This document shows, piece by piece, positions 33,977-56,270 of a stretch of DNA of 64,000 bases (positions are counted from its first letter, which is position 1; each line of letters opens with the position of its first letter). This stretch comes from an uncultured Pelagibacteraceae bacterium (lineage in GTDB: Bacteria; Pseudomonadota; Alphaproteobacteria; Pelagibacterales; Pelagibacteraceae). Below the pieces are notes generated by a model, which saw only the letters and a program-made list of their open reading frames with translations, made no database searches and was not told the origin of the DNA. The DNA is taken from assembly GCA_902526595.1 (NCBI GenBank), contig CABZLO010000001.1, forward strand, positions 1-64,000. Direction: 5' to 3'. The position numbers and the translations under genes were made by a program.

Positions 33977-35149
33977 TTAACTCTTAATATGAAGTTCTTT
34001 TGGGAAATTACAGAATAATTCAGAACCATCCTCAGTTACTCTAATTGCTTCAGAGGCTTCTACGCCCCAGTCACCAAATTGCATCACTGCTATCATATGA
34101 AAACAGACATTAGGCTCTAGAACGGTCATATCACCTTTGTATATATTTAGAGTATGTTCGCCCCAATCTGGAGGATAGCCAATTCCAATTGAATATCCTG
34201 TTCTAGATTTTTTTTCTATTCCATATTTATCTAAAATTTTCCAAAATGCCTGGGCAACATCATCAGCAGTATTTCCAGGTTTGATAGCACTAATGCCAGA
34301 GTTCAAAGCCTCAATAGTTTTATTCATAGTATCTATTTTTGTTTGGTCAGGTTTTCCTAATAAAACTGTTCGAGCCATTGGAGCATGATATCTTTTATAA
34401 GTTCCTGATAACTCAATTATTGTAGCTTCCCCTTCAACAAATTTATCTTGGGATGCGGTCAAGTGAGATGCTGAAGTTCCTTTTCCTGTTGGTACTAAAG
34501 TTGCAATACTTGCATATTCTCCCCCAAATTCCTCAGTTCCATAAAATAATGATTTTTGAATTTCTCCAACTGCATCACACTGCCTTACACCAGGATTAAT
34601 TACTTCCATTGCAGTTTTCATTCCTTTTTCAGAAATTTTTGCAGCAGATTTCATATAAGTTATTTCAGCGTCTGATTTTACCAGTCTTGCCCAATTGACC
34701 AAACGATCACTGTCTTTTATTTTTGCGTTAGGAAGACCTAATTTAATTTTTTCATAACAAAATGCTGTGAAATAATGTGCATCCATCTCTACACCAATTG
34801 ATAGTTTGTCCCACTTTCTCTCTTTAATAATGTTAACTAAGTAATCATAAGGATGTTTTGGCCAGGTATGAATATAAGACTCATCGTAAGCTATTATGTT
34901 CTCATTTTTTAGATAAGTTTTTAAGTAAGCTCCGCCTGCATCTTGAGCTCTTACAAAGCACAGTGGTTCTTCTGCATTAACATGTACAATAGCGCACTGT
35001 GCATAATAAAAAGACCATGCATCATAACCTGTTAAATAATTTAGGTTATTAGTGTCATGGGAGATTAAAAGTTCAATGCCTTTGTCTTGCATCATAGATT
35101 GAACTTTCTTTAGTCTCTGTTTGTATTCTTCTTTTGTAAAATACATCAA
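33977..35149 (-). CDS. doeA: M24 family hydrolase, ectoine hydrolase (DoeA/EutD)-like
   Basis: NLNYLTGYDAWSFYYAQ; creatinase/prolidase fold; neighbour is EutA-like. Confidence 0.7.
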   Translation of the reverse strand: MMYFTKEEYKQRLKKVQSMMQDKGIELLISHDTNNLNYLTGYDAWSFYYAQCAIVHVNAEEPLCFVRAQDAGGAYLKTYLKNENIIAYDESYIHTWPKHPYDYLVNIIKERKWDKLSIGVEMDAHYFTAFCYEKIKLGLPNAKIKDSDRLVNWARLVKSDAEITYMKSAAKISEKGMKTAMEVINPGVRQCDAVGEIQKSLFYGTEEFGGEYASIATLVPTGKGTSASHLTASQDKFVEGEATIIELSGTYKRYHAPMARTVLLGKPDQTKIDTMNKTIEALNSGISAIKPGNTADDVAQAFWKILDKYGIEKKSRTGYSIGIGYPPDWGEHTLNIYKGDMTVLEPNVCFHMIAVMQFGDWGVEASEAIRVTEDGSELFCNFPKELHIKS

Positions 35150-35892
35150 TTTATTTGGAATAATTTACCAAATCCCCTTACTGAATTATTTTTATTTATT
35201 TTAACAAGGGTATCCCAAATCAATGCCTGGTTACTAGATAAAACCGTAGTATTTAATTTTTTTTCTAATTTATCTATGATGGTTAAAACTGGAAGAGCTG
35301 TACATGAAACAAACAGAGCATCTGCATTATTTAAATCAATGTTAGATAATACTTCATACAAATAATTTTGATCAACTTTACCAATATCAAGATCAGACTC
35401 GATATCAAAATATGCATTAGATGTAATATCAAAACCCTCACTTTTAAAATACTCCAAAACTTCATCATTTAATTTCTTACTATAAGGTGTAAATAAACAT
35501 ATTTTATTAATGTTCATTTTTTTAAGTGCTGTAATTGCAGCTGTACTTGGTGTGGTTACATCTGCTTTTGGTTTTGCTGCCTTTACTTTTTTTTCAATTG
35601 ATGTATGTCCAGCAGCAATAGTTCCAGAGGTACAGCCATAAACTACACAATCTAGATCCTGATCTGGTAAAATATCTTTTGTAACCTCTGTAACTTTTTC
35701 TGACATTTTGATTAGGTTTTCCTTTGTTAATGGATTGTAACTTTCAATTCGATTTACAAAAAAATCAATATCTTTATCTTTAATTACGTTTATAAAATCC
35801 TTTTCAATCATAAAGTCGCTTGCAAGTGCTATCAGGCCGACTCTTGGATTTGATTTACTTACAAATTTAGGATCTATTTTTGTTGAATTCAT
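35146..35892 (-). CDS. Asp/Glu racemase / maleate isomerase superfamily, EutA-like
   Basis: VVYGCTSGTIAAG and LFVSCTALPVL paired catalytic Cys motifs. Confidence 0.75.
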   Translation of the reverse strand: MNSTKIDPKFVSKSNPRVGLIALASDFMIEKDFINVIKDKDIDFFVNRIESYNPLTKENLIKMSEKVTEVTKDILPDQDLDCVVYGCTSGTIAAGHTSIEKKVKAAKPKADVTTPSTAAITALKKMNINKICLFTPYSKKLNDEVLEYFKSEGFDITSNAYFDIESDLDIGKVDQNYLYEVLSNIDLNNADALFVSCTALPVLTIIDKLEKKLNTTVLSSNQALIWDTLVKINKNNSVRGFGKLFQIN

Positions 35893-36836: not shown

Positions 36837-37298
36837 ATGTTATTAAAAAGTTTTTCAGTTAAACAAGAGTGGGTTGACTATAACAATCATATGAATATGG
36901 CTTACTATGTTCTAATATTTGATCAAGCCTTAGAAGTTGTACTTGAAGAATTTAAAATGGGAGAAAGTGCAGCAAAAGATTTAAATAGAAGTACTATGGT
37001 AGTTGAAACAAACACTAAATATTTACGAGAAGTAAAGCAAGGTGATGAAATAGATATTCATATGACTTATTTTGATCATGACAAGAAAAGGCTTCATATA
37101 AAAATGGAGATGATTGAAAAAAGTGAAAAAAAAATATCAGCAAACATAGAGTGGATATCTTTATATATAGATTTAAACCAGAGAAAAGTAACCGAATTTG
37201 AAGAAGAAAAGTTAAAATTAATGGATAAGTTTATTGAGGATAATAAAACTAAATTTGTATCTAATGATCTTCTTTTTTCCTCAAAATTAAAGAAATAA
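36837..37298 (+). CDS. 4HBT-family acyl-CoA thioesterase-like
   Basis: VKQEWVDYNNHMNMAYYVLIFDQALEVVL; TKYLREVKQGDEIDIHM hot-dog motif. Confidence 0.75.
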   Translation: MLLKSFSVKQEWVDYNNHMNMAYYVLIFDQALEVVLEEFKMGESAAKDLNRSTMVVETNTKYLREVKQGDEIDIHMTYFDHDKKRLHIKMEMIEKSEKKISANIEWISLYIDLNQRKVTEFEEEKLKLMDKFIEDNKTKFVSNDLLFSSKLKK

Positions 37299-37338
37299 TT
37301 AAATATTACAAATTCTAATAATTTGATATAGGTGCCCA

Positions 37339-38294
37339 ATGAGCACCAATAATAATCCTAAAGGTATTATTTTAATTGTTACTGCAATGACATTTTTTTC
37401 AATGCAGGATGCATTGATTAAATTTATTTATGAACAAGCAGCACTTTATGAAATTTTTTTTGGAAGATATTTTGTTGCAGCCATTTTACTGTTTGGATAT
37501 ATAAAATTTAGAAATCAGAAAGTTTCACTAAAAACTTACTATCCTTCTTTAACAGTATTAAGAGTTTTACTACACTTTATTGCTTTTTCTGCTTTTTTAT
37601 CTCATTAACATATATGCCACTAGCAACTGCTAATGCACTTTTTTTTTCCTCTCCATTTTTTGTGTCAATTTTTGCAAAAGTATTTTTGAAAGAATTTATT
37701 GGAATTAGAAGATGGTCTGCAATTATATTTGGCTTTATTGGAGTTTATATAGTTTTAAATCCTGATTTTTCTAACTTTGAATATAAAAATTTATTACCAG
37801 TTTTCTCTGCTTTTTTTTATGCAGCTTCTATGACTATTACAAAATATACCTCTGATAAAGATGATGTTAATACACAATTATTTTATTTTTATCTTATTGC
37901 TATAGCCTTGTGTGTAATAATTTTTATTTTTATGGGGAATGGCCAATTTAATAATTCGAATTTTGATTCAACAACTCAGTTTATTTTTAGAGAATGGTTT
38001 TCAAATATTGAGTATACTTGGAAGTTTATTTTATTTTTTGGTTTTGTTGCTTCTATTGCATTTGTATGCATTTTTTCTGCTTATATTGTTGCATCTCCAT
38101 CTGTGGTATCACTTTTTGAATATTCTTTAATTATTATGTCTATGATACCTGGGTTTTTATTATTCAATGAAATTCCATCTTTACGAACATTTTTAGGTGT
38201 TGCTTGTATTATTGCTGCTGGAATTTATATCTATGTAAGGGAAAAAGCTAGAGATCAATACATTGCTACAAAAACACCTTTGAGAAGATCGTAA
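37339..38294 (+). pseudogene. EamA/DMT transporter split by apparent -1 nt frameshift at T6 37593-37598
   Basis: 89-aa and 226-aa ORFs join when T6 becomes T7: ...HFIAFSAFFISLTYMPLATANALFFSSPFFVSI. Confidence 0.85.
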
Positions 38295-38422
38295 AATTAT
38301 ATTGAAACTCTACTTCACTAATAATAAGGTTCAAGTATAGAACGATACATAACTCGTCGTTAAATTCATATTTACGAAAGTGGGATCAATCGTCTTAGAT
38401 TTAATTATTTAAGGAGGTTCGA

Positions 38423-39589
38423 ATGAAGTTTGGATATTTTTGTAACACAACTAACTGGGATCAAAAACCCTATAAACAGTTACTAGATGAAACAAAAGAG
38501 ATAACAACTTATTGTGATAAAAATAATTGGGACTCTATTTGGTATACCGAGCATCATTTTAATCACGAAGGTATGGAGTCGTGCACTAATCCATTAATGA
38601 TGGGTGTTGATGCAGCTGCTAGAACTAAACAAATAAAAATTGGACAAGCATGCAATGTTATTACTTTTCATAACCCTTTAAGACTGGCTGAAGACATTGC
38701 TTTATTAGATCAATTATCAAATGGAAGAGCTCTAGTTGGTATTGGAAGAGGAATTTATGGAAGAGAGGCAATGAATTTAAATAAAGAAGCCGATCTAAAG
38801 GACCAAGCAAAAAATTTTAGACTGTTTGAAGAGTCTCTTACAATAATGAAAAAAGCATGGACAGAGGAATTTTTTAGTCATAAAGGTGAATTCTATACTT
38901 ATCCATCACCAAATTTTGTTTGGCAACACGACATGAGTCCTCCAAACAAAGAATTTGTAGACATTGAAACAAATGAGATGAAAAAAATAAGTGTGGTTCC
39001 AAAACCTAAACAAAACCCACACCCACCAATTTGGCAAGTAGTAGATGGTGCAAGATCAATTGAATGGGCTGCACAAAATGGTTTGAACACTATTATGTGG
39101 ATACCTACTGTTAAAGCTCTTAAAAAAAGATTTGAGATATTCAGAGATGCAAAGTCAAAAGCAGAGAACAGAGAAGTTCCTTTAGGTGAAGGTATATCTT
39201 TAGTTAGAGATATGTTTGTTGCAGAAACAATGGAAGAAGCAGAAAAATTAGCAGGTGAACATATTATAAATTATATGAGATGGGTCTGTCATTGGCGAGG
39301 GTTGGGCAATCATATGGACCCAGGTGAAGAATTGCCAGAAACAAAACATAAATTAGATTTATTAAATTATGAATTTTTACATAAAAGAAATTTATTGTTT
39401 GGTACTCCAGAGTATGTTGTTAATAAAATTAATGAACTAAAATCAGAGTTGAATTTACAAAATCTACAAGTTTGGTCTAACTTTCCTGGAATAGACCATG
39501 AAGCTTGTATGAGAAGCATTAAATTATTTAATGATGAAGTAATTCCAAAAATAAATTTAGACAGTTCTAATATAGAAAAAGCAAGTTAA
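38423..39589 (+). CDS. LLM-class (bacterial luciferase-like) flavin-dependent oxidoreductase
   Basis: SIWYTEHHFNHEGMESCTNPLMMGVDAAARTKQIKIGQACNVITFHNPLRLAEDIALLDQLSNGRALVGIGRG; SD AAGGAGG. Confidence 0.9.
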   Translation: MKFGYFCNTTNWDQKPYKQLLDETKEITTYCDKNNWDSIWYTEHHFNHEGMESCTNPLMMGVDAAARTKQIKIGQACNVITFHNPLRLAEDIALLDQLSNGRALVGIGRGIYGREAMNLNKEADLKDQAKNFRLFEESLTIMKKAWTEEFFSHKGEFYTYPSPNFVWQHDMSPPNKEFVDIETNEMKKISVVPKPKQNPHPPIWQVVDGARSIEWAAQNGLNTIMWIPTVKALKKRFEIFRDAKSKAENREVPLGEGISLVRDMFVAETMEEAEKLAGEHIINYMRWVCHWRGLGNHMDPGEELPETKHKLDLLNYEFLHKRNLLFGTPEYVVNKINELKSELNLQNLQVWSNFPGIDHEACMRSIKLFNDEVIPKINLDSSNIEKAS

Positions 39590-40173
39590 TGAATTTAGAA
39601 ATAAGAAAGTTTACTAAATTTGTAGACAAAACTTTAATTGAGGGTGGAAAAAAAGCTAAGGAGCCAGTTTTATTAGTTTCTGTAGCTGCAGTATTTAAAA
39701 ATCCATGGCACGGGCAAGGATTTGTTGAAGACCTTAGACCAACTATTTTAGATTTAGCTCCTAAACTTGGAGATATGCTTGTGCCTGAATTGATTAAAGA
39801 GATGGGTTCACCTGATAAAATTCTTGCATATGGAAAAGCTGGAATTGTTGGATTAAATGGAGAGATAGAGCACGCATCAGCATTTATACACACTTTAAGA
39901 TTTGGGAATAAATTTAGAGATGCTGTAGGTGGTACATCTTATTTAAGTTTTACAAATACGAGAGGGCCAGCAGGCTCAAAAATATTAATTCCAATGATGC
40001 ACAAAACAGACTCTGGTTTAAGACCATACTATTTAACTCATGAGTTCACAATTCATGATGCACCATTTGATGACGAAGTTGTAATAGCTATAGGAGGTGC
40101 TTCAAGTGGAAGAGCTCATGCAAGAACAGGTGATAGATATCAAGATATGAAAGAGATGGGCATTAAAAATTAA
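39589..40173 (+). CDS. Amino acid synthesis (AA_synth, PF06684-like) family protein
   Basis: EIRKFTKFVDKTLIEGGKKA…VAAVFKNPWHGQGFVEDL…YGKAGIVGLNGEIEHASAFIHT. Confidence 0.75.
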   Translation: MNLEIRKFTKFVDKTLIEGGKKAKEPVLLVSVAAVFKNPWHGQGFVEDLRPTILDLAPKLGDMLVPELIKEMGSPDKILAYGKAGIVGLNGEIEHASAFIHTLRFGNKFRDAVGGTSYLSFTNTRGPAGSKILIPMMHKTDSGLRPYYLTHEFTIHDAPFDDEVVIAIGGASSGRAHARTGDRYQDMKEMGIKN

Positions 40174-40176
40174 AAA

Positions 40177-40962
40177 ATGCTTTATAATTTTGATAGAAAT
40201 CAAAATCATTATTATTTTAATAATAAAAATTCAGTTCCAATAATTTTTATACACGGACTTGGATTAAATCAATCAATGTGGAAACCCCAAATTGATTTTT
40301 TTAAAAATAAATCTTTTGTAACATATGATCTTTTAGGGCATGGCAAGACACCTTTTAGTGAAAATATACTAACAATGAAAAAACTTGCTGGCCAATTATT
40401 AGTTTTGATTGAGAATTTGAAAATAGATAAATTTCATTTAATTGGTTTTTCTATCGGAGCATTAGTTTCAATTGAGTTTGCTACAAACTATGAAAAATAT
40501 TTAAACTCTTTGACTTTAATTTCTACAACTTATAAAAGGTCAAACGATGAAAGGCAAAAAGTAATTGATAGGGTAAATTTAGTAAAAAAAAATATGCCTA
40601 TTTCCCAAATGGCTATGAAAAGATGGTTCTCTGATGACTATATTAAAAAAAATCCTGATCTATATGAAGAATTCCTAATAACTCTCAACAAAGAGGGAGT
40701 TGACCAAGAGAATTTTATTAAAGCTTACGAATTATTTGCAAATTATCAAGATAGCCCAGAAAAAATAAAAAAAATAAAAACTAATACCTTAATAATTGCA
40801 GGTTCAGAAGATACAGGGTCTACTCCAAATATGTCTAAAAATTTAAATAAAGATATTCAAAATTCACAATATTTAGAAATTAAAAATGGGAAACACTTCA
40901 CTACTATTGAATATGCCGACGAAGTAAATAATGCAATAATGGAACATTTAAATGATGCCTGA
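40177..40962 (+). CDS. Alpha/beta hydrolase
   Basis: IIFIHGLGLNQSMW, nucleophile elbow LIGFSIGALVS, C-terminal GKHFTTIEYADEV. Confidence 0.85.
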   Translation: MLYNFDRNQNHYYFNNKNSVPIIFIHGLGLNQSMWKPQIDFFKNKSFVTYDLLGHGKTPFSENILTMKKLAGQLLVLIENLKIDKFHLIGFSIGALVSIEFATNYEKYLNSLTLISTTYKRSNDERQKVIDRVNLVKKNMPISQMAMKRWFSDDYIKKNPDLYEEFLITLNKEGVDQENFIKAYELFANYQDSPEKIKKIKTNTLIIAGSEDTGSTPNMSKNLNKDIQNSQYLEIKNGKHFTTIEYADEVNNAIMEHLNDA

Positions 40963-42436
40963 ACTTAAAAAATATAAAATGTTTATTGATGGAGAGTGGG
41001 TAGACTCTGAAAGTAAAAAAACTTTTGAGACTTTAAACCCTGAAAACAATGAACCATGGGCAGTTGCGCCTGAAGCAAGCGCAAAGGATGTTGACAGAGC
41101 TGTTAAAGCTGCACAAAAAGCTTTTGAAGGTGAATGGCCAAAATTGCTTCCAAGAGATAGAGCTAAATTTTTAAGAGCAATTGCTGATCAGTTAAGAAAA
41201 AATGCAGAGATGCTGGGTGAAATAGAAACAATTGATACAGGAAAACTTTTTAGGGAAACAAAACAGCAAGCAACTTACATTGCAGAGTACTATGATTATT
41301 ATGCAGGATTAGCTGATAAAGTTGAAGGTTCAGTTCTTCCAATAGATAAACCCAATGTGCAAGCGATAACAACAAGAATACCTATTGGAGTTGTTGCCGC
41401 AATTATTCCGTGGAACTCTCAAATGTTTTTAACAGCAACTAAATTAGCACCAGCTCTAGCAATGGGAAATACTGTAGTTATAAAATCTTCAGAGCTAGCG
41501 CCTGCAGTCTTATTTGAATTTGCGAAGCTTGTAGAGAAAACTGGAATACCTAAAGGAGTAGTTAATGTCATTACAGGTTTTGGTGATCCATGTGGTAAAA
41601 CTTTAACAACACATAATCTTGTAGAGAAAATTGCTTTTACAGGAGGACCCGAAACTGCGAGACGTATAATTAAAAATTCAGCTGAAAATCTCTCAGAAGT
41701 AAGTTTAGAGCTTGGAGGAAAAAGTCCAGTTGCTGTATTTGATGATGCTGAACAAGAAAATGCAATTAATGGAATTACTGCTGGAATATTTGGTGCGAGT
41801 GGACAAAGTTGCATTGCAGGTTCAAGACTTTATATCCAAAAAGGAATTTATAATGAATTTCTAGATAAACTTTCTAGCAGAGCCTCCAAAATAAAAATAG
41901 GGGCTCCAATGGATCTAGATACAGAGATGGGTCCTTTAAGTAGTTTTAAACAATTAGAAACAATTGAAAAAAATATAAAAGATACAATTGATCAAGGTGG
42001 AAAGATTAAATGTGGTGGTAAAAGAGACTCATTTTCTAACAAAGGATATTACTTCCCACCAACAATTATTGAATGTGATAATCATAATCTGCCTACTGCA
42101 GAAAATGAATTATTTGGGCCTGTATTGTCAGTAATGAAATTTGATACTGAGGATGAAGTAATTAGTAAAATGAACGATAATCAATATGGTTTATCATCTG
42201 GCGTTTACACAAGTAATTTATCCAGAGGCATGCGAGTTTCCAAAGCAATAAGAGCTGGAATTACTTTTGTAAATACTTATAGACTAATTTCACCTTCGGC
42301 TCCATTTGGAGGTATCAAAGATAGTGGCTACGGCAAAGAAGCTGGGGTAGATTCTATTAAAGATTATACAAGAGTAAAAACAACCTGGTTTTATACATCT
42401 GATGAACCTTCATTAGATCCATTCTCAATTAGATAA
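40952..42436 (+). CDS. Aldehyde dehydrogenase family protein
   Basis: IPWNSQMFLTATKLAPALAMGNTVVIKSSELAP; SLELGGKSPVAVF; GASGQSCIAGSRLYI. Confidence 0.92.
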   Translation: MMPELKKYKMFIDGEWVDSESKKTFETLNPENNEPWAVAPEASAKDVDRAVKAAQKAFEGEWPKLLPRDRAKFLRAIADQLRKNAEMLGEIETIDTGKLFRETKQQATYIAEYYDYYAGLADKVEGSVLPIDKPNVQAITTRIPIGVVAAIIPWNSQMFLTATKLAPALAMGNTVVIKSSELAPAVLFEFAKLVEKTGIPKGVVNVITGFGDPCGKTLTTHNLVEKIAFTGGPETARRIIKNSAENLSEVSLELGGKSPVAVFDDAEQENAINGITAGIFGASGQSCIAGSRLYIQKGIYNEFLDKLSSRASKIKIGAPMDLDTEMGPLSSFKQLETIEKNIKDTIDQGGKIKCGGKRDSFSNKGYYFPPTIIECDNHNLPTAENELFGPVLSVMKFDTEDEVISKMNDNQYGLSSGVYTSNLSRGMRVSKAIRAGITFVNTYRLISPSAPFGGIKDSGYGKEAGVDSIKDYTRVKTTWFYTSDEPSLDPFSIR

Positions 42437-42548
42437 ATCATTTTCCTGCGATAAACTGCTTTAAAATATGATAATTTAGTCATTGAATATTCAAATTATT
42501 CATAATTAAATTAGTTTTTATAAATTGTTAACAATATAGAGGAAGATA

Positions 42549-43739
42549 ATGAGAAAACTATTTATCGCTGTATTTATGTTTGTTTCAAGTTTTGGTTCAA
42601 ATGTAATGGCAGACGGACATGCTATCAAGATGGGGATTATCTTAGGATTCACAGGTCCTATTGAGTCTCTTACACCAGCAATGGCAGCATCAGCAGAGCT
42701 TGCATTCAAAGAAGCTTCTGACTCGGGTTCGCTATTAGGTGGAAAAAAAATTGATCCTGTAAGAGCAGATTCAACTTGTGTAGACTCAGCGGCAGCAACA
42801 GCAGCAGCTGAAGGAATTATTTCACAAGGTGTAGCAGCTATTATGGGAGCTGATTGTTCAGGTGTAACAGGTGCTATTGCATCAAACGTTGCTGTACCAA
42901 ACGGTGTAGTAATGATTTCACCTTCAGCAACATCTCCAGGATTAACAACTCTAGATGACAATGGATACTTCTTTAGAACTGCTCCATCTGATGCTAGAGG
43001 TGGTCAAATCCTTGCAGATATCACAAAAGATAGAAAAGTTAAAAGTGTAGCTATTACATATACAAATAATGACTATGGAAAAGGCTTGGCTGATGTATAC
43101 GAAGCAGCGGTAAAAGCTCATGGTATTAAAGTAACAACGGTAACTGCACACGAAGACGGTAAAGCTGACTATTCATCAGAAGTTGCAACACTTGCTTCAG
43201 CTGGTGGAGATGCTGTAGCTGTAATTGGATATCTTGACCAAGGTGGAAAAGGAATTATCCAAGCGTCTCTAGACTCTGGTGCATTTGATAAATTTATTTT
43301 ATCTGATGGTATGATCGGTCAATCTTTGGTTGATGCATTTGGAAAAGATTTAAGTAAATCATTTGGATCTATGCCTGGTTCTACTGGAAAAGGTGCTGGT
43401 GTTTTTGCTGATGTCGCAAAAGCAAGTGGTATAGACTCTTCTGGACCTTACACAGGTGAGTCATACGATGCAGCAGCTTTAATCGTTTTAGCTATGCAAG
43501 CTGGAAATTCAGCTGACAGAGGTTCTATTGCAAAAAATGTAATGGACGTAGCTAATGCACCAGGAACTAAAATTTATCCAGGTGAGCTAAAAAAAGGTTT
43601 AGATTTACTTGCTAAAGGTAAAAAGATTAATTACGAAGGTGCAACCGGAGTAACTTTTACTGCAGTTGGTGAAGCTGAAGGTTCTTTTTTAGAACAAGAA
43701 ATTAAAGGTGGAAAATTTAAAACTAAAAAACAAAGATAA
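42549..43739 (+). CDS. LIV-type (periplasmic-binding fold I) substrate-binding protein
   Basis: Signal peptide; IKMGIILGFTGPIESLTPAMAASAELAFKEA; IMGADCSGVTGAIASNVAVPNGVVMISPSATSPGLT. Confidence 0.85.
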   Translation: MRKLFIAVFMFVSSFGSNVMADGHAIKMGIILGFTGPIESLTPAMAASAELAFKEASDSGSLLGGKKIDPVRADSTCVDSAAATAAAEGIISQGVAAIMGADCSGVTGAIASNVAVPNGVVMISPSATSPGLTTLDDNGYFFRTAPSDARGGQILADITKDRKVKSVAITYTNNDYGKGLADVYEAAVKAHGIKVTTVTAHEDGKADYSSEVATLASAGGDAVAVIGYLDQGGKGIIQASLDSGAFDKFILSDGMIGQSLVDAFGKDLSKSFGSMPGSTGKGAGVFADVAKASGIDSSGPYTGESYDAAALIVLAMQAGNSADRGSIAKNVMDVANAPGTKIYPGELKKGLDLLAKGKKINYEGATGVTFTAVGEAEGSFLEQEIKGGKFKTKKQR

Positions 43740-43756
43740 TTTTTACCAACATAAAA

Positions 43757-43787
43757 CCCCAGTAGCGAGAGTTATTGGGGTTTTTTT
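43757..43787 (+). terminator. Rho-independent terminator, probably bidirectional
   Basis: CCCCAGTA-GCGAGAGT-TATTGGGG + T7; the opposite strand has CCCCAATA...TGGGG + T4. Confidence 0.85.
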
Positions 43788-43864: not shown

Positions 43865-45235
43865 TTATTTTATTTCTATTTTTTCAGGAAGTATACCCTT
43901 TGGTCTATACCTCATTATCAACAACAAGCCTAATCCCATCATTAAAAATCTAAAGTAAGGTACACTCTCTATTAAGTGAAGTTTTAGAGAATGAGTTTCT
44001 GGCATTCCTGCAGTAAAAAAGTTTATTAAAAATAATGCAATTGGAGCAGCCTCTATCCATAAGAACCAAACTGCAAAACCACCCAATATAGCTCCAAAAT
44101 TATTTCCACTTCCTCCTACAATTACCATAACCCAAATTAAAAAAGTATATCTCATAGGTCTATAACTTCCTGGGGTAAACAACCCATCTTGAGTAACTAA
44201 CATTGCTCCAGCAATTCCAACAATTGCTGAACCTAAAATAAAAATTAATAAATGCTGTTTAACAACATTTTTTCCCATAGCATTTGCTGCCTCCTCATTA
44301 TCTCTTATAGCTCTCATCATTCTTCCCCATGGAGAGTAAAGAGCTTTTTGTGTAAGGATTAATAAAATAATTACTACTGTCAAAAATAATCCTGAATAAC
44401 AAAGTTTTACAAAGATAGACGAGCCTTCAATTACGAGTTGATTTAATGCAGCTTGTCGATCAGATAAATTAGAAATTAATTCTAATTTTCCAGAATTAAA
44501 TTTTTCTACCAAATTTATAAACCAATCTGTTGACTGAAGATCTACCTCATAAGGAGCCGGCCTTTTAAGTCCAATTACATTTTTAACACCTCTAGTTAAC
44601 CAGTCCTCATGTTTTATAATTGCTATGACAATTTCTGATATTAAAAGAGTAGCAATCGCTAAATAGTCTGCTCTTAAGCCTAAGGCTACTTTTCCAATAA
44701 TAAATGCCAAACCTCCTGCAAAAAAAGCACCAACAATCCATGAAAAAATAATTGGTAATCCAAAACCTCCTAAAAAACCAGTCTTGGCTGGGTTAACTGC
44801 TTCAATAGCTTCTATACCTGGCTCTGCTGAAAATCTTATTAATAAAATTCCTGAGATAATTATTACACCAATACTGTATGTTCTTATTTTGGATTTATTA
44901 AATCTTTTTAAAATAAATCTTATTATTAATACCATCGCTATAATAAGCCATAGAGACATCAGTATATCAAACCCTCCAGCGCTCCATGCTTCTTGAACTG
45001 GATCAACAGAAATTAAGACTGCAGCTAGTCCTCCTAAAGCTGTGTATCCCATAATTCCGAAATTTATTAATCCTGCATATCCCCATTGAATATTAGCACC
45101 CATAGTCATAACAGCAGAGATTAAACAGAGGTTAAATATAGATAATGCAATATTCCAAGATTGAAAAATTCCAACCAATATTATTAAGGCCATCATAATA
45201 CTGTATGCTGCAATTACATTTAAATTTTTTCTCAC
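43865..45235 (-). CDS. livM: LIV-type ABC permease LivM
   Basis: GLRADYLAIATLLISEIVIAIIKHEDWLTRG; RAIRDNEEAANAMGKNVVKQ; VIVGGSGNNFGAILGG. Confidence 0.85.
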   Translation of the reverse strand: MRKNLNVIAAYSIMMALIILVGIFQSWNIALSIFNLCLISAVMTMGANIQWGYAGLINFGIMGYTALGGLAAVLISVDPVQEAWSAGGFDILMSLWLIIAMVLIIRFILKRFNKSKIRTYSIGVIIISGILLIRFSAEPGIEAIEAVNPAKTGFLGGFGLPIIFSWIVGAFFAGGLAFIIGKVALGLRADYLAIATLLISEIVIAIIKHEDWLTRGVKNVIGLKRPAPYEVDLQSTDWFINLVEKFNSGKLELISNLSDRQAALNQLVIEGSSIFVKLCYSGLFLTVVIILLILTQKALYSPWGRMMRAIRDNEEAANAMGKNVVKQHLLIFILGSAIVGIAGAMLVTQDGLFTPGSYRPMRYTFLIWVMVIVGGSGNNFGAILGGFAVWFLWIEAAPIALFLINFFTAGMPETHSLKLHLIESVPYFRFLMMGLGLLLIMRYRPKGILPEKIEIK

Positions 45236-46242
45236 AATACTTTTCCTTTGAATATTCCTGATGGTCTATAAAGCAATACTATTACAAGTATTGAAAATGA
45301 AACCGCAAATTTATAATCTGTTGATAAAAGCTGTACTAAACTCTCAGGTTCCATGCTTTCAGGCAGTATGTACATAAAAAACTTTTTATATGCATATGTT
45401 AAAAATATTTCAGAAAAAGCAATTACATATCCCCCTAAAAATGCACCAAATGGATTTCCAATTCCACCTACAATAGCAGCTGCGAATATAGGAAGCATGT
45501 TATTAAAATAAGTGAACGGTTTGAAGCTTTTATCTAAACCGTATAACGCCCCTCCAATAGTTGCTAATATTCCAGCGATTATCCAAGTTATTATTACAAT
45601 TTTTTTAGGGTCTATTCCTGAAAGTAAAGCTAAGTCCTCATTATCTGAATAGGCTTTCATACTTTTACCTGTTTTAGTTTTATTTAAAAACCAAAACAGC
45701 AAAGATACTAATATAATTGTAACTAGCACTGTGATTACCTGTGTTGATTTCAAAGCAAGCCCCTCATTAAATCCAGTCATCTCTTTAAACTCTCTAGCTT
45801 TAATTATAAATTTTTCGCCATCAAAAAATCTTTGATCTGAAGGACCAATAATAATTCTAACCACTGCTTGGGTAACAAACATTACTCCAATACTAACCAT
45901 AGCCAATTGAACAGGAGGACTTTTGTTTGCTCTATAATATTTGAAAACAAACTTATCTATACTTAGCATGTAAAGGATCATAAAAAAAATTGCAAATGGA
46001 ATTGCTAATAAAGCTGTAGGCAAAACTCCTAAAGAAATCCCAAGTGATTGAAAATACCAAGTAAATAGAATTGTAACCATTGTTCCAAAAGACATCATGT
46101 CTCCAGTTGCAAAATTAGCAAATCTCAAAATTCCATAAATTAGTGTAACAAATATTGCCCCTAAAGCTAATTGTGAACCATATGTTAAGGCTGGAATAAA
46201 AATATAATTTAGTAAAAGAATTAACGCATTAAGAAAGTCCAT
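45232..46242 (-). CDS. livH: LIV-type ABC permease LivH
   Basis: LALGAIFVTLIYGILRFANFATGDMM; AIVGGIGNPFGAFLGGYVIA. Confidence 0.88.
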   Translation of the reverse strand: MDFLNALILLLNYIFIPALTYGSQLALGAIFVTLIYGILRFANFATGDMMSFGTMVTILFTWYFQSLGISLGVLPTALLAIPFAIFFMILYMLSIDKFVFKYYRANKSPPVQLAMVSIGVMFVTQAVVRIIIGPSDQRFFDGEKFIIKAREFKEMTGFNEGLALKSTQVITVLVTIILVSLLFWFLNKTKTGKSMKAYSDNEDLALLSGIDPKKIVIITWIIAGILATIGGALYGLDKSFKPFTYFNNMLPIFAAAIVGGIGNPFGAFLGGYVIAFSEIFLTYAYKKFFMYILPESMEPESLVQLLSTDYKFAVSFSILVIVLLYRPSGIFKGKVL

Positions 46243-46243
46243 A

Positions 46244-46951
46244 TCAACCTCCTAAAAAAGAGCTTCTAACTCTTTTGTCGTTTAATAATTCTTTTCCAGT
46301 TCCTGAATAACGATTTTCTCCAGTTACTAAAATATATCCCCTATCAGATATACTCAAAGCTTGTTTAGCATTTTGCTCAACCATTAAGATTGCAACATTG
46401 GTTTTTTTAACTTTAACAATATGATCAAAAAGCTCATCCATAACTATAGGTGAAACACCTGCAGTTGGTTCATCTAACATCAAAACTGTTGGTTTGATCA
46501 TTAAGGCTCTTCCTAATGCAACTTGTTGTCTTTGTCCGCCAGATAGTTCTCCAACCATTTGATCTCTTTTTTCTCTTAAAACAGGAAACAATTCATAAAT
46601 TTCATTAATTATATTTTTTATTTCATTACTTAAAAGAAAAGCTCCCATTTCTAAATTTTCTTCAACAGTCATACCTGAGAAAACGTTTTTTGTTTGTGGT
46701 ACAAAAGATATTCCCTCTTTAACTCTATCTTGTGGAGAAAGGTTTGATATATCTTTACCATCTATTTTTACTGCTCCAGATTTTAGATTTAGTAAACCAA
46801 GCATCGCTTTCATAGCTGTGGACTTTCCAGCTCCATTTGGACCTAGAATAGATACTATTTCTCCTTTATTTACTTCTACTGAACAAGAATTAATAATATC
46901 TGGACCATTTCCATAGCCTCCAGTCATTTTTAATCCCTCAAAGTAAGCCAT
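46244..46951 (-). CDS. livF: LIV-type ABC ATPase LivF
   Basis: ILGPNGAGKSTAMKAMLGL; GELSGGQRQQVALGRALM; LMLDEPTAGVSP. Confidence 0.92.
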   Translation of the reverse strand: MAYFEGLKMTGGYGNGPDIINSCSVEVNKGEIVSILGPNGAGKSTAMKAMLGLLNLKSGAVKIDGKDISNLSPQDRVKEGISFVPQTKNVFSGMTVEENLEMGAFLLSNEIKNIINEIYELFPVLREKRDQMVGELSGGQRQQVALGRALMIKPTVLMLDEPTAGVSPIVMDELFDHIVKVKKTNVAILMVEQNAKQALSISDRGYILVTGENRYSGTGKELLNDKRVRSSFLGG

Positions 46952-47739
46952 TAATTATTTTCCCTTAATTTTGATCCTCTACCAAGATAACTCTCAATCA
47001 CTTTTTCATCTTTTTTTGCTTCCTCAACTGAACCTTCAAATAGAACAGATCCCTCAGCCATTACTATTACTGGATCACATAATCTTCCAATAAAGTCCAT
47101 ATCGTGCTCTATCATACAAAATGTATAACCTTTTTCTTTATTCAACTTTTCAATAGCTGTACCTAAATCTTTAAGCAAAGTTCTGTTGACGCCAGCTCCA
47201 ACTTCATCCAATAAAACTAATTTTGCATCAACCATCATAGTTCTTCCAAGTTCAAGTAATTTTTTCTGTCCCCCAGAAAGATTTCCAGCAAGTTCATTGG
47301 ATAAATGTTCAAGATTTAAAAATTCAACCACTTCTTTTGCTTTTTCCTTGATTATACTCTCTTCTTTAGCTACCAAACCTGGTTTAAATAATGCTGTCGT
47401 TAACTTTTCACCTGATTGATTACCAGGTACCATCATTAAATTTTCTAAAACAGATAAGTTAGAAAATTCATGTGCAATTTGGAATGTTCTGAGTAATCCT
47501 TTTGAAAATAATTCAAATGAAGGTACATTTGTTATATTTTCGCTATCAAAAATTACTTCACCACCTGAGGACTTTAAATTTCCTGCAATCAGATTAAACA
47601 ATGTTGTCTTACCAGATCCATTGGGTCCAATAATTCCTGTTATAGTACCTCTTGAAACTTTTAATGAGCAATCTGAAACAGCAGCTAATCCACCAAAGTA
47701 TTTTGATAAATTTTTGATTTCTAGAATATTTTCTGACAT
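46951..47739 (-). CDS. livG: LIV-type ABC ATPase LivG
   Basis: IIGPNGSGKTTLFNLIAGN; GNLSGGQKKLLELGRTM; LLDEVGAGVNR. Confidence 0.92.
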   Translation of the reverse strand: MSENILEIKNLSKYFGGLAAVSDCSLKVSRGTITGIIGPNGSGKTTLFNLIAGNLKSSGGEVIFDSENITNVPSFELFSKGLLRTFQIAHEFSNLSVLENLMMVPGNQSGEKLTTALFKPGLVAKEESIIKEKAKEVVEFLNLEHLSNELAGNLSGGQKKLLELGRTMMVDAKLVLLDEVGAGVNRTLLKDLGTAIEKLNKEKGYTFCMIEHDMDFIGRLCDPVIVMAEGSVLFEGSVEEAKKDEKVIESYLGRGSKLRENN

Positions 47740-47744
47740 TCAGT

Positions 47745-48512
47745 CTATTTACTTAGTCTTCGATGAATGTTATTTAAAGTTTTTTCAAGTGATTTATAAA
47801 ATCCAGCTTTTGATAACTCTTTAACACCTTGCTCGTTTAAACCTTTTGGAGTTTGAGACTCTTTTACCAAAAACTTTAAATTTTCTTTTGAATTTTTAAC
47901 TGCATCTTCAGATAAGGCTAAGAATAACGACGTAATATATTTTTGAGCATTATCTCTCTTTACACCTTTTTTAACTAACCAATCAGTCATTACTCTCAAT
48001 AATTCGTAAAATGGAGCCATCATGCCAGAAGTTGTCCAAAAGTTAATTGAAGATTTTTCTTTTTTAATTTCAACAGTGGTTCCTAAATGATTAAAAAACT
48101 TCTTAACTTTAACATTTGGAGGACAAATAGGCACTGGTCCTCTTTTTAACGAGATTGGTGGCAGAGGTATTGCTCTAACTATTTTCGCTTTAACTTTTAT
48201 CACTTTTTTTAATCGTGATAATGTAATCGTAGAAATAAAACTTATAATCGTCTGTTTGGATTTGAATTTTAAGTTTTTAATAATTTTTTCACCCACGCTT
48301 GGCGTTACTGATAGGAAAACCCAATCTGATTGATCGACAATTTGCTGATTGGTTTTAGCAATTGTAATTTTCTTAAATTTTGCCTTTAAAGCGTTAGCTA
48401 TTTTTGTATTTCTTGGAGAAATTATTATTTTCTTATAGGAGATTTTAGAAGAACAAATTCCAGTAATTACTGAAGATGCTATTTTGCCGGTGCCAATAAA
48501 TCCTAAATTCAT
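47745..48512 (-). CDS. proC: Pyrroline-5-carboxylate reductase-like
   Basis: MNLGFIGTGKIASSVITGI; VRAIPLPPISLKRGPVPICPP. Confidence 0.8.
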   Translation of the reverse strand: MNLGFIGTGKIASSVITGICSSKISYKKIIISPRNTKIANALKAKFKKITIAKTNQQIVDQSDWVFLSVTPSVGEKIIKNLKFKSKQTIISFISTITLSRLKKVIKVKAKIVRAIPLPPISLKRGPVPICPPNVKVKKFFNHLGTTVEIKKEKSSINFWTTSGMMAPFYELLRVMTDWLVKKGVKRDNAQKYITSLFLALSEDAVKNSKENLKFLVKESQTPKGLNEQGVKELSKAGFYKSLEKTLNNIHRRLSK

Positions 48513-48546
48513 AAAGTTTTGATTACTTTATATTGATTATATTGAA

Positions 48547-49458
48547 TTAATTAACAAAAAAAGAGCCTCTAATTCTCAACAATTCCCTACTTAATTCTTT
48601 ATTTTCTTTAAATGGTTTTCTCCCATGAAGCCAGAAATAATTATTAGCTATAACAGAATGACCGACTGGTAATTTAGTAATTACTTTATTTTTACTTTCC
48701 TCTAATGCGTCTGATAATTTTTGTAAAAAATTTCCCTGTTCCATATTTTTAGGTTCTGGAAACTGGTCTATATATGAGATTTTAGCTCTTCCTTCTTTAT
48801 CAAACGAAAAAACAGGATGTTCTACTTTATAATCAATATTTTTACTTTTAGGAGATCCCCAAATAAAATCTTGTTGTCCAACAGGATCATTAGATAAATC
48901 ATCACAATGCTCCCAATCATCTAAATGCAACATTGCAGTTTCACCACCCTGTACATTTTGTTCTTCTAATTTAGTCATAACTAACCAATCGGTAACTTCC
49001 TTTACATATGTCCCGTCCGTGTGCAAATCCATATTTCTGTAAGCTTTTCTCAAATAAGAGTCACTAGCATCTTCATGCTTTACATGGAATCTAGCATAAT
49101 ATTTTCCTGCCATTGAGTCATGATTTGGAATTCCAATTAAGTGAGCAATAGCAGTTGCCAATTTAACTAAAAATTTATCATTAGTTTTTGACGAAATATT
49201 TTTAGGACCAATAATAAAACAACCGGTTGATCTATCTCGGATTATAGAATTTACTAACTTGCTTAGTTTATTGTTAGTTAAATCGTCAAGACTTTTCGCA
49301 ATTGTAAATCTAGTAAATGGTTTAAGTTCTAGTGCAGTAAGATCAAATTTATTAAAAGGAAAAATTAATTTTTTTACGATTTCATCATCTAATTGAATAT
49401 TTAATATTCTACTAGAGTCTTTGTGATTGTGAACTTCTATACCCTCAATTTTTTCCAT
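48547..49458 (-). CDS. glaH: Glutarate 2-hydroxylase (CsiD/GlaH), Fe(II)/2OG-dependent
   Basis: LRKAYRNMDLHTDGTYVKEVTDWLVMTKLEEQNVQGGETAMLHLDDWEHC; HGRKPF with terminal RELLRIRGSF. Confidence 0.88.
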   Translation of the reverse strand: MEKIEGIEVHNHKDSSRILNIQLDDEIVKKLIFPFNKFDLTALELKPFTRFTIAKSLDDLTNNKLSKLVNSIIRDRSTGCFIIGPKNISSKTNDKFLVKLATAIAHLIGIPNHDSMAGKYYARFHVKHEDASDSYLRKAYRNMDLHTDGTYVKEVTDWLVMTKLEEQNVQGGETAMLHLDDWEHCDDLSNDPVGQQDFIWGSPKSKNIDYKVEHPVFSFDKEGRAKISYIDQFPEPKNMEQGNFLQKLSDALEESKNKVITKLPVGHSVIANNYFWLHGRKPFKENKELSRELLRIRGSFFVN

Positions 49459-55540: not shown

Positions 55541-56155
55541 TTAGTATTGTTGCGTTACAACGATAATTACTGCAATAATTACCAACACACTCGCTGAAAT
55601 TGTATTAATTGTTCTTGGTTTGGTATTGATCCAAGTAATTAGCTTTTGTGCAAGTAAAGCATAACCAATTAGCGATAAAAAATCTAAAACAACATAAGTT
55701 GTAATTAAAATTAAAAATTGAATCAAATAATTACCATTAAAATCTATAAACTGTGGAAAAATTAGTGGAAAGAACATCCAAGCTTTTGGACTAGTTCCAG
55801 CAACTAGAAAGCCATCTTTAAAAAAAGAAAAGAAACTTTTTGAGAAATCTTTATTAGTATTAATTTTTTTAGGTCGAGAATTATAAATATCAAATGCTAA
55901 ATATAAAATATAAACAACACCAATCCATTTAAATATATTTAAAAAATTTGAATTTTCTGAAAAGAAAGATCCAATCACAAAAATTACTAAAGTGGCTTGA
56001 ATGATATTAGCAGTAATATCTCCCAACGCAGTCCAAACACATTTTTGAACTCCATAATTCATAGAATATGAAACAATTACAATTCGTGGTGGCCCTGGAG
56101 TAATAAATAAAAATAGAATTATTTGTAAAAATAAAAAGTAATTAAGGGGAAGCAT
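55541..56155 (-). CDS. LysE family translocator
   Basis: LFITPGPPRIVIVSYSMNYGVQKCVWTALGDITANI; multi-TM. Confidence 0.8.
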   Translation of the reverse strand: MLPLNYFLFLQIILFLFITPGPPRIVIVSYSMNYGVQKCVWTALGDITANIIQATLVIFVIGSFFSENSNFLNIFKWIGVVYILYLAFDIYNSRPKKINTNKDFSKSFFSFFKDGFLVAGTSPKAWMFFPLIFPQFIDFNGNYLIQFLILITTYVVLDFLSLIGYALLAQKLITWINTKPRTINTISASVLVIIAVIIVVTQQY

Positions 56156-56207
56156 TTAAGGATAGTCCTTAAAAACCGGGAGCTAAAGATGGCTAAGAAG
56201 GACTATC
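56156..56207. promoter_or_regulatory. Candidate leader RNA of lysE or paired operator in divergent intergenic region
   Basis: 10-mer GATAGTCCTT (56161-56170) inverted as AAGGACTATC (56198-56207), plus the perfect palindrome TTAAGGA-TAG-TCCTTAA (56156-56172) that covers the lysE SD (minus AAGGA). Confidence 0.5.
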
Positions 56208-56270
56208 TTTTACATAATATCAGAGGCCAAAAAAAATGCATTAAATTTTTATTTCAATTATAAAGGGTTT

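Follow-up and report, generated by a model that had tools for sequence, protein, structure and literature searches.

A four-gene operon of Pelagibacter (SAR11) as a probable counterpart of trigonelline- and homarine-type degradation operons

Introduction

Trigonelline and homarine are N-methylated pyridines and common plankton metabolites. A trigonelline degradation (tgn) operon was reportedly described in Acinetobacter baylyi by Perchat et al. 2018, and Ferrer-Gonzalez et al. 2026 are said to have described in Nat Microbiol an operon for homarine catabolism, homABCDER, in Rhodobacterales and SAR11. Pyridine degradation in Arthrobacter relies on an LLM (PyrA), a reductase (PyrE), an amidohydrolase and an SSADH; to our knowledge, this pathway includes no AA_synth protein. 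PcaD-like alpha/beta hydrolases, such as NicD, the vitamin B6 pathway hydrolase and TgnD, can act on formamides or enamides. The flavin-dependent monooxygenase that acts on trigonelline, TgnB, belongs to the luciferase-like class (PMC11354265), and TgnF of the Acinetobacter trigonelline pathway is a homologue of an AA_synth (DUF1185) protein (PMC7913881). The homABCDER paper (Ferrer-Gonzalez et al. 2026) is cited in PMC13390433. Here, we analyzed a 64,000-nucleotide stretch of a Pelagibacter (SAR11) genome (hereafter, the window) and compared one of its operons with these systems.

Results

A conserved four-gene operon

Our analysis identified an operon of four genes at positions 38423-42436, running from an LLM-class flavin monooxygenase to an aldehyde dehydrogenase (ALDH). 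The operon and the features that follow it are:

38411..38417, plus strand, Shine-Dalgarno motif AAGGAGG of the LLM gene (read from the sequence)
38423..39589, plus strand, LLM-class flavin monooxygenase, 388 aa, proposed ring-opening oxygenase, outside the TgnB clade (Bac_luciferase PF00296, E 5e-43)
39589..40173, plus strand, AA_synth / DUF1185 protein, 194 aa, TgnF-like, putative accessory role (PF06684, E 4e-64)
40177..40962, plus strand, alpha/beta hydrolase, 261 aa, PcaD-like, proposed enamide/formamide hydrolase (Abhydrolase_1, E 6e-20)
40952..42436, plus strand, ALDH, 494 aa, TgnC-like, C-terminus ...DEPSLDPFSIR (Aldedh PF00171, E 3e-160)
42549..43739, plus strand, Liv/HAAT-type periplasmic binding protein, a neighbor outside the operon (Peripla_BP_6, E 3e-31)
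43753..43784, no strand assigned, terminator-like hairpin that separates the binding-protein gene from the convergent Liv genes (from the sequence)
43865-47739, Liv-type ABC genes, convergent to the binding-protein gene

The initial annotation had described a five-gene operon that included the binding protein. All five ORFs are present on the plus strand and belong to the families it named (Pfam), and its spacing of 0-3 nt among the first four genes is correct for the LLM and AA_synth genes (1-nt overlap) and for the AA_synth and hydrolase genes (3-nt gap), but not for the hydrolase and ALDH genes, which overlap by 11 nt. The order LLM-AA_synth-hydrolase-ALDH is contiguous in 69 of the 70 Pelagibacter loci with enough sequence, which is far from chance, and the expected co-conservation of components is thus borne out for these four genes, the binding protein being separate. 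The genes flanking the operon on both sides differ from genome to genome, which points to an accessory unit, and AA_synth was found in 19 of the 61 relatives searched. The best 80 matches of the LLM protein in the genome collection are all assigned to Pelagibacteraceae, Pelagibacterales or Candidatus Pelagibacter, with identities of up to 99%. Just upstream of the LLM gene, an EamA-type transporter gene (37252-38294, plus strand) is interrupted by a frameshift close to 37590 and encodes 226 aa, compared with 317-318 aa in at least 14 near-identical loci, and is either a real pseudogene or the product of a sequencing error.

The binding protein lies outside the operon, as its gene starts after a 112-nt gap from the ALDH gene and has its own hairpin, it is found within 2 kb of the ALDH gene in only 40 of 61 loci, and it is present in 49 of the 61 relatives, compared with 19 for AA_synth. 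It occurs in all 18 near-complete relatives, with or without the operon, and in one genome (G022) AA_synth and the binding protein are on separate contigs. Together with the convergent Liv-type ABC genes, it forms a common transporter next door to the operon, and the proposed pathway "with its own binding protein" is not supported by these counts. We considered P5C reductase and CsiD (47745-49458) as an imine reductase and product enzyme and set them aside: other SAR11 keep both next to the binding protein where the Liv genes are missing, so that they look like chromosomal neighbors.

Three further observations concern the surroundings of the operon. The CsiD/GlaH glutarate dioxygenase (48547-49458, minus strand; 459 bits, NCBIfam cut-off 333), adjoins the P5C-reductase-like gene. 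A pair of ectoine hydrolase-like DoeA and EutA-like genes (33977-35892, minus strand) scores below both NCBIfam cut-offs (456 vs 613 and 204 vs 318 bits, respectively), and its position near the operon is kept in many SAR11 loci. An rhtB sRNA motif (RF01814, 79 bits) is located at 56143-56225 on the minus strand.

AA_synth and ALDH form a core shared with tgn-like operons

The window AA_synth is 52-59% identical to the AA_synth proteins of tgn-like operons (52-57% for L001, L002, L006 and L184-L203), and its match to either of the two AA_synth proteins of solved structure is far weaker (91 bits at best). Likewise, the window ALDH is 50-54% identical to most ALDHs of tgn-like operons; the other ALDHs of those loci reach 33-39%. 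A C-terminal DPF.[MI]R end is common to the operon ALDHs and is missing from SSADH and from the second Leisingera ALDH. The SAR11 operon therefore contains both a TgnF-type AA_synth and a TgnC-type ALDH. The AA_synth family had been annotated as having no clear biochemical role, a statement superseded by its being the family of TgnF, a protein of the trigonelline pathway (PMC7913881). In the AA_synth tree, the SAR11 sequences join those of G271, a non-SAR11 alphaproteobacterium, with support of 88/79, and the same grouping is found in the LLM tree.

The LLM belongs to a separate clade and lacks the usual reductase

The window LLM is only 27-32% identical to the TgnB-type LLMs of tgn-like operons, and in the LLM tree it forms, with its G271 relative, a separate and fully supported clade on a very long branch from the TgnB type; it is thus not a TgnB orthologue. 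Since this is the enzyme that sets the substrate, the substrate of TgnB cannot be transferred to it. Sequence comparison placed it close to no characterized enzyme, so that the case that would have refuted the initial annotation, an LLM closest to a characterized enzyme of another pathway with different partners, does not arise. When 297 Pelagibacterales genomes were searched with a Leisingera TgnB-type LLM, none of the near-full-length hits among the matches listed exceeded 29% identity; the search brought up the window-type LLM and another family of LLMs, about 344-349 aa long, at 25-29% identity. This second family was set aside; AA_synth is not among its immediate neighbors in the loci read. 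In SAR11, the second LLM (344 aa) is paired with an alpha/beta hydrolase (L234:5478-9157 and L235:4109-5923), and in L234 the pair adjoins carnitine-dehydrogenase-like and BKACE genes near a glycine-betaine-type ABC protein. LLM relatives at 31-46% identity in other alphaproteobacteria mostly have no AA_synth nearby (L150-L157) and give no substrate clue.

The Flavin_Reduct family (PF01613), to which TgnA belongs, is absent from the window genome (84% complete) and from 49 near-complete Pelagibacter genomes, about half of which carry the window-type LLM. Two PF03358 proteins of the window genome (contig C3) are possible substitute flavin reductases, judging by family. The structure that AlphaFold predicted for the LLM was of poor quality (mean pLDDT 40, from an alignment with 15 close relatives), and nothing here rests on it.

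The hydrolase and a thiamine-diphosphate enzyme vary between operons

The hydrolase is of the same superfamily as those of tgn-like operons outside SAR11 and has a similar gene neighborhood, with 21-32% identity to them and long branches in the tree, and its presumed triad (S92, D212 and H240) is invariant in all 12 hydrolases compared. It scores 120-145 bits with PcaD models. Compared with the window proteins, those of locus L021 are 95-97% identical for LLM, AA_synth and ALDH and 45% identical for the hydrolase, and DNA identity to L021 and L022 is about 90%, drops to 62-67% within the hydrolase gene and then recovers. The hydrolases of both loci group with those of operons of the type described below, which carry a thiamine-diphosphate (TPP) enzyme. 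We note this as a block exchange of the hydrolase gene (40177-40962 vs L021:9761-10549) between operons otherwise 95-97% identical in protein, which makes the operon a mosaic.

Further Pelagibacter genomes and members of a second SAR11 family likewise have a contiguous block, but with a gene for a TPP enzyme of 565-567 aa inserted between LLM and AA_synth. This gene is present in about half of the Pelagibacterales operons (e.g., L106:7613-9316 and L110:8259-9956), and its product is acetolactate synthase/Xsc-like, the best NCBIfam model being the Xsc-type PRK07525 (395 bits). It is absent from the window operon, the L007-L086 loci and the G271 operon, and the best match to the enzyme in the window genome (29%) lies beside ilvH/ilvC-like genes. 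The TPP enzyme does not fit into the tgn scheme and counts against a tgn/hom-type reading. L106 and L234 also have an isopenicillin-N-synthase-like 2OG-Fe(II) oxygenase gene ahead of the LLM gene.

Related operons across Pseudomonadota

A distant DNA match led to an Acinetobacter baumannii locus (L001) with the order GntR | AA_synth-hydrolase-flavin reductase-LLM-ALDH-NCS1 transporter-porin-SSADH, a gene content that we take to be that of the tgn cluster. The set AA_synth-hydrolase-flavin reductase-LLM-ALDH was also found in Leisingera and Ensifer. A survey seeded from AA_synth alone gave 20 neighborhoods from 399 genomes across the phylum, with ALDH in all of them, the hydrolase together with either a flavin reductase or an LLM in nearly all, and the five-gene set in most. 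A GntR regulator accompanies the AA_synth-hydrolase-reductase-LLM-ALDH set in Leisingera (L002) and in the f24 loci L185, L186, L188 and L192, sets that would presumably fit the name homABCDER; the five-gene content is probably that of the homarine operon as well. In the L190 cluster, a BCCT betaine/carnitine/choline transporter adjoins the LLM, which fits a betaine substrate.

The G271 operon has the order flavin reductase-LLM-AA_synth-hydrolase-ALDH, the reductase-LLM arrangement expected of a two-component LLM, and its LLM is 55% identical to that of the window. G286 has more distant LLM relatives, which are clustered there with AA_synth, hydrolase and ALDH genes. In G271, a Rieske oxygenase, a LysR regulator and a pipecolate-oxidase-like flavoprotein precede the LLM operon (L148:11774-15519). 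The Rieske oxygenase is nearest to glycine-betaine/carnitine monooxygenases and, by this similarity, could point to another betaine; a search for Rieske-linked versions in the order of G271 found G271 only, the 43 other genomes having no close LLM.

The initial annotation had read the co-directional genes as one catabolic pathway of oxygenation, hydrolysis and aldehyde oxidation, a reasonable reading, its components being co-conserved. Its description of an undescribed pathway does not stand, as operons of AA_synth, hydrolase, flavin reductase, LLM and ALDH recur widely and the pathway type is known.

Discussion

From the observed gene content, order and conservation, the AA_synth and ALDH homology, the LLM clade and the absence of Flavin_Reduct, we infer the reactions and substrate that follow. 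The operon is probably, although by no means certainly, the SAR11 version of a tgn/hom-type operon that opens N-methylated pyridine carboxylates (homarine or trigonelline). The LLM, with reduced flavin from a reductase encoded elsewhere, would oxygenate and open the N-methylpyridinium ring, giving an N-formyl-N-methyl enamide with an aldehyde end. The TgnC-like ALDH would oxidize the aldehyde to a carboxylate, the alpha/beta hydrolase would cleave the formamide/enamide to formate and the rest of the molecule, and AA_synth would assist, as reported for TgnF. With homarine, the hydrolase product would be an N-methylimino/2-oxo-glutarate equivalent, leading on towards N-methylglutamate/2-oxoglutarate; with trigonelline, methylamine, CO2 and succinic semialdehyde would be formed. 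If a ring is opened, homarine would be the substrate with slightly better than even probability, trigonelline is a rather less probable choice and another N-heterocycle a little less so again. Homarine is favored because homABCDER reportedly occurs in SAR11 and Rhodobacterales. The window genome carries two Sox-type (sarcosine-oxidase) sets (L249:2496-7587 and L250:103-4337), one with its first gene cut by a contig end, and one of the two could be an N-methylglutamate dehydrogenase (Mgd). Mgd was discarded as a homarine marker, as the models used cannot separate it from Sox and most Pelagibacter have two sets, with or without the operon.

The LLM clade, unlike that of TgnB, would also suit another betaine or N-methyl amino acid (stachydrine, a carnitine-like compound or another quaternary ammonium compound), in which case the tgn-derived AA_synth, hydrolase and ALDH would have been recruited to serve a new LLM, one that breaks a C-N bond and leaves no aromatic ring opened. 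The GbcA/CntA-like Rieske oxygenase and pipecolate-oxidase-like flavoprotein beside the G271 operon agree with such a substrate, as does the richness of the SAR11 region in osmolyte/carnitine-type genes (DoeA/EutA-like genes and a carnitine-dehydrogenase-type thioesterase; BKACE and carnitine-dehydrogenase-like genes in relatives). We nevertheless consider this unlikely, given that ALDH and AA_synth are 50-60% identical to their tgn-type partners, that a clearly different use of the AA_synth/hydrolase/ALDH trio was not seen, and that the Rieske link occurs in a single genome and is absent from SAR11 operons. A further reading, put forward tentatively and rather improbable, is that in SAR11 the oxygenase of a pyridinium-betaine pathway was replaced by an LLM of another clade served by a non-standard flavin reductase, and that the operon evolves as a mosaic, with AA_synth and ALDH fixed while the hydrolase module and the LLM or LLM+TPP module are exchanged, so that SAR11 lineages would open different N-heterocycles and share the same downstream core.

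The TPP gene between LLM and AA_synth raises the idea of a sulfonate or C-C-cleaving route, in which an SsuD-like LLM would be followed by the TPP enzyme (sulfoacetaldehyde acetyltransferase/acetolactate synthase-like) and ALDH, the window operon being a TPP-less remnant. This is quite improbable: the TPP enzyme scores far under the Xsc cut-offs (395 vs 620 and 380 vs 676 bits), the LLM is a weak SsuD match (35 bits, cut-off 518), and the window operon, the L007-L086 loci and G271 do without the enzyme. By family name, the flavin oxygenase and RutD-like hydrolase also recall Rut-like uracil/pyrimidine degradation, which the initial annotation had rightly doubted and to which we give next to no weight. 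The hydrolase scores 82 bits against a RutD cut-off of 238.5, below its PcaD scores, no RutA model is among the best 25 LLM matches, RutB, C, E, F and G are missing from the operon, and the RutF family is PF01613, which the genome lacks.

The operon probably allows an abundant ocean microbe to feed on compounds of a known class, and if it opens the ring of pyridinium betaines, its genes would be a marker for consumers of these compounds. The modules (LLM or LLM+TPP, swapped hydrolase) would suggest substrate niches within Pelagibacter, the poorly understood AA_synth family would be tied to a definite pathway, and the question would arise of how reduced flavin is supplied to the LLM in cells that lack the usual family of reductases. 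Should the SAR11 hom genes in the literature prove to be those of the window operon, the pathway would be one already known.

Among the described systems, Rut shares with the SAR11 operon a flavin oxygenase and an alpha/beta hydrolase, but its other components are missing and scores are far below its cut-offs. The Arthrobacter pyridine pathway has, by description, the same order of chemistry (ring opening by an LLM, formamide hydrolysis and aldehyde oxidation) with another hydrolase family, and AA_synth is present in the SAR11 operon. Compared with the hom-like loci, the window LLM is 27-28% identical to those of L002 and L188, and the SAR11 operon has no adjoining reductase or regulator. With respect to tgn (counterpart L001), the SAR11 operon has an LLM of another clade (30% identity), a hydrolase of 23% identity and another gene order, and no flavin reductase, GntR regulator, NCS1 transporter or SSADH adjoins it; the two share, in one operon, AA_synth (55%), ALDH with the DPF.[MI]R end (52%), an alpha/beta hydrolase and an LLM.
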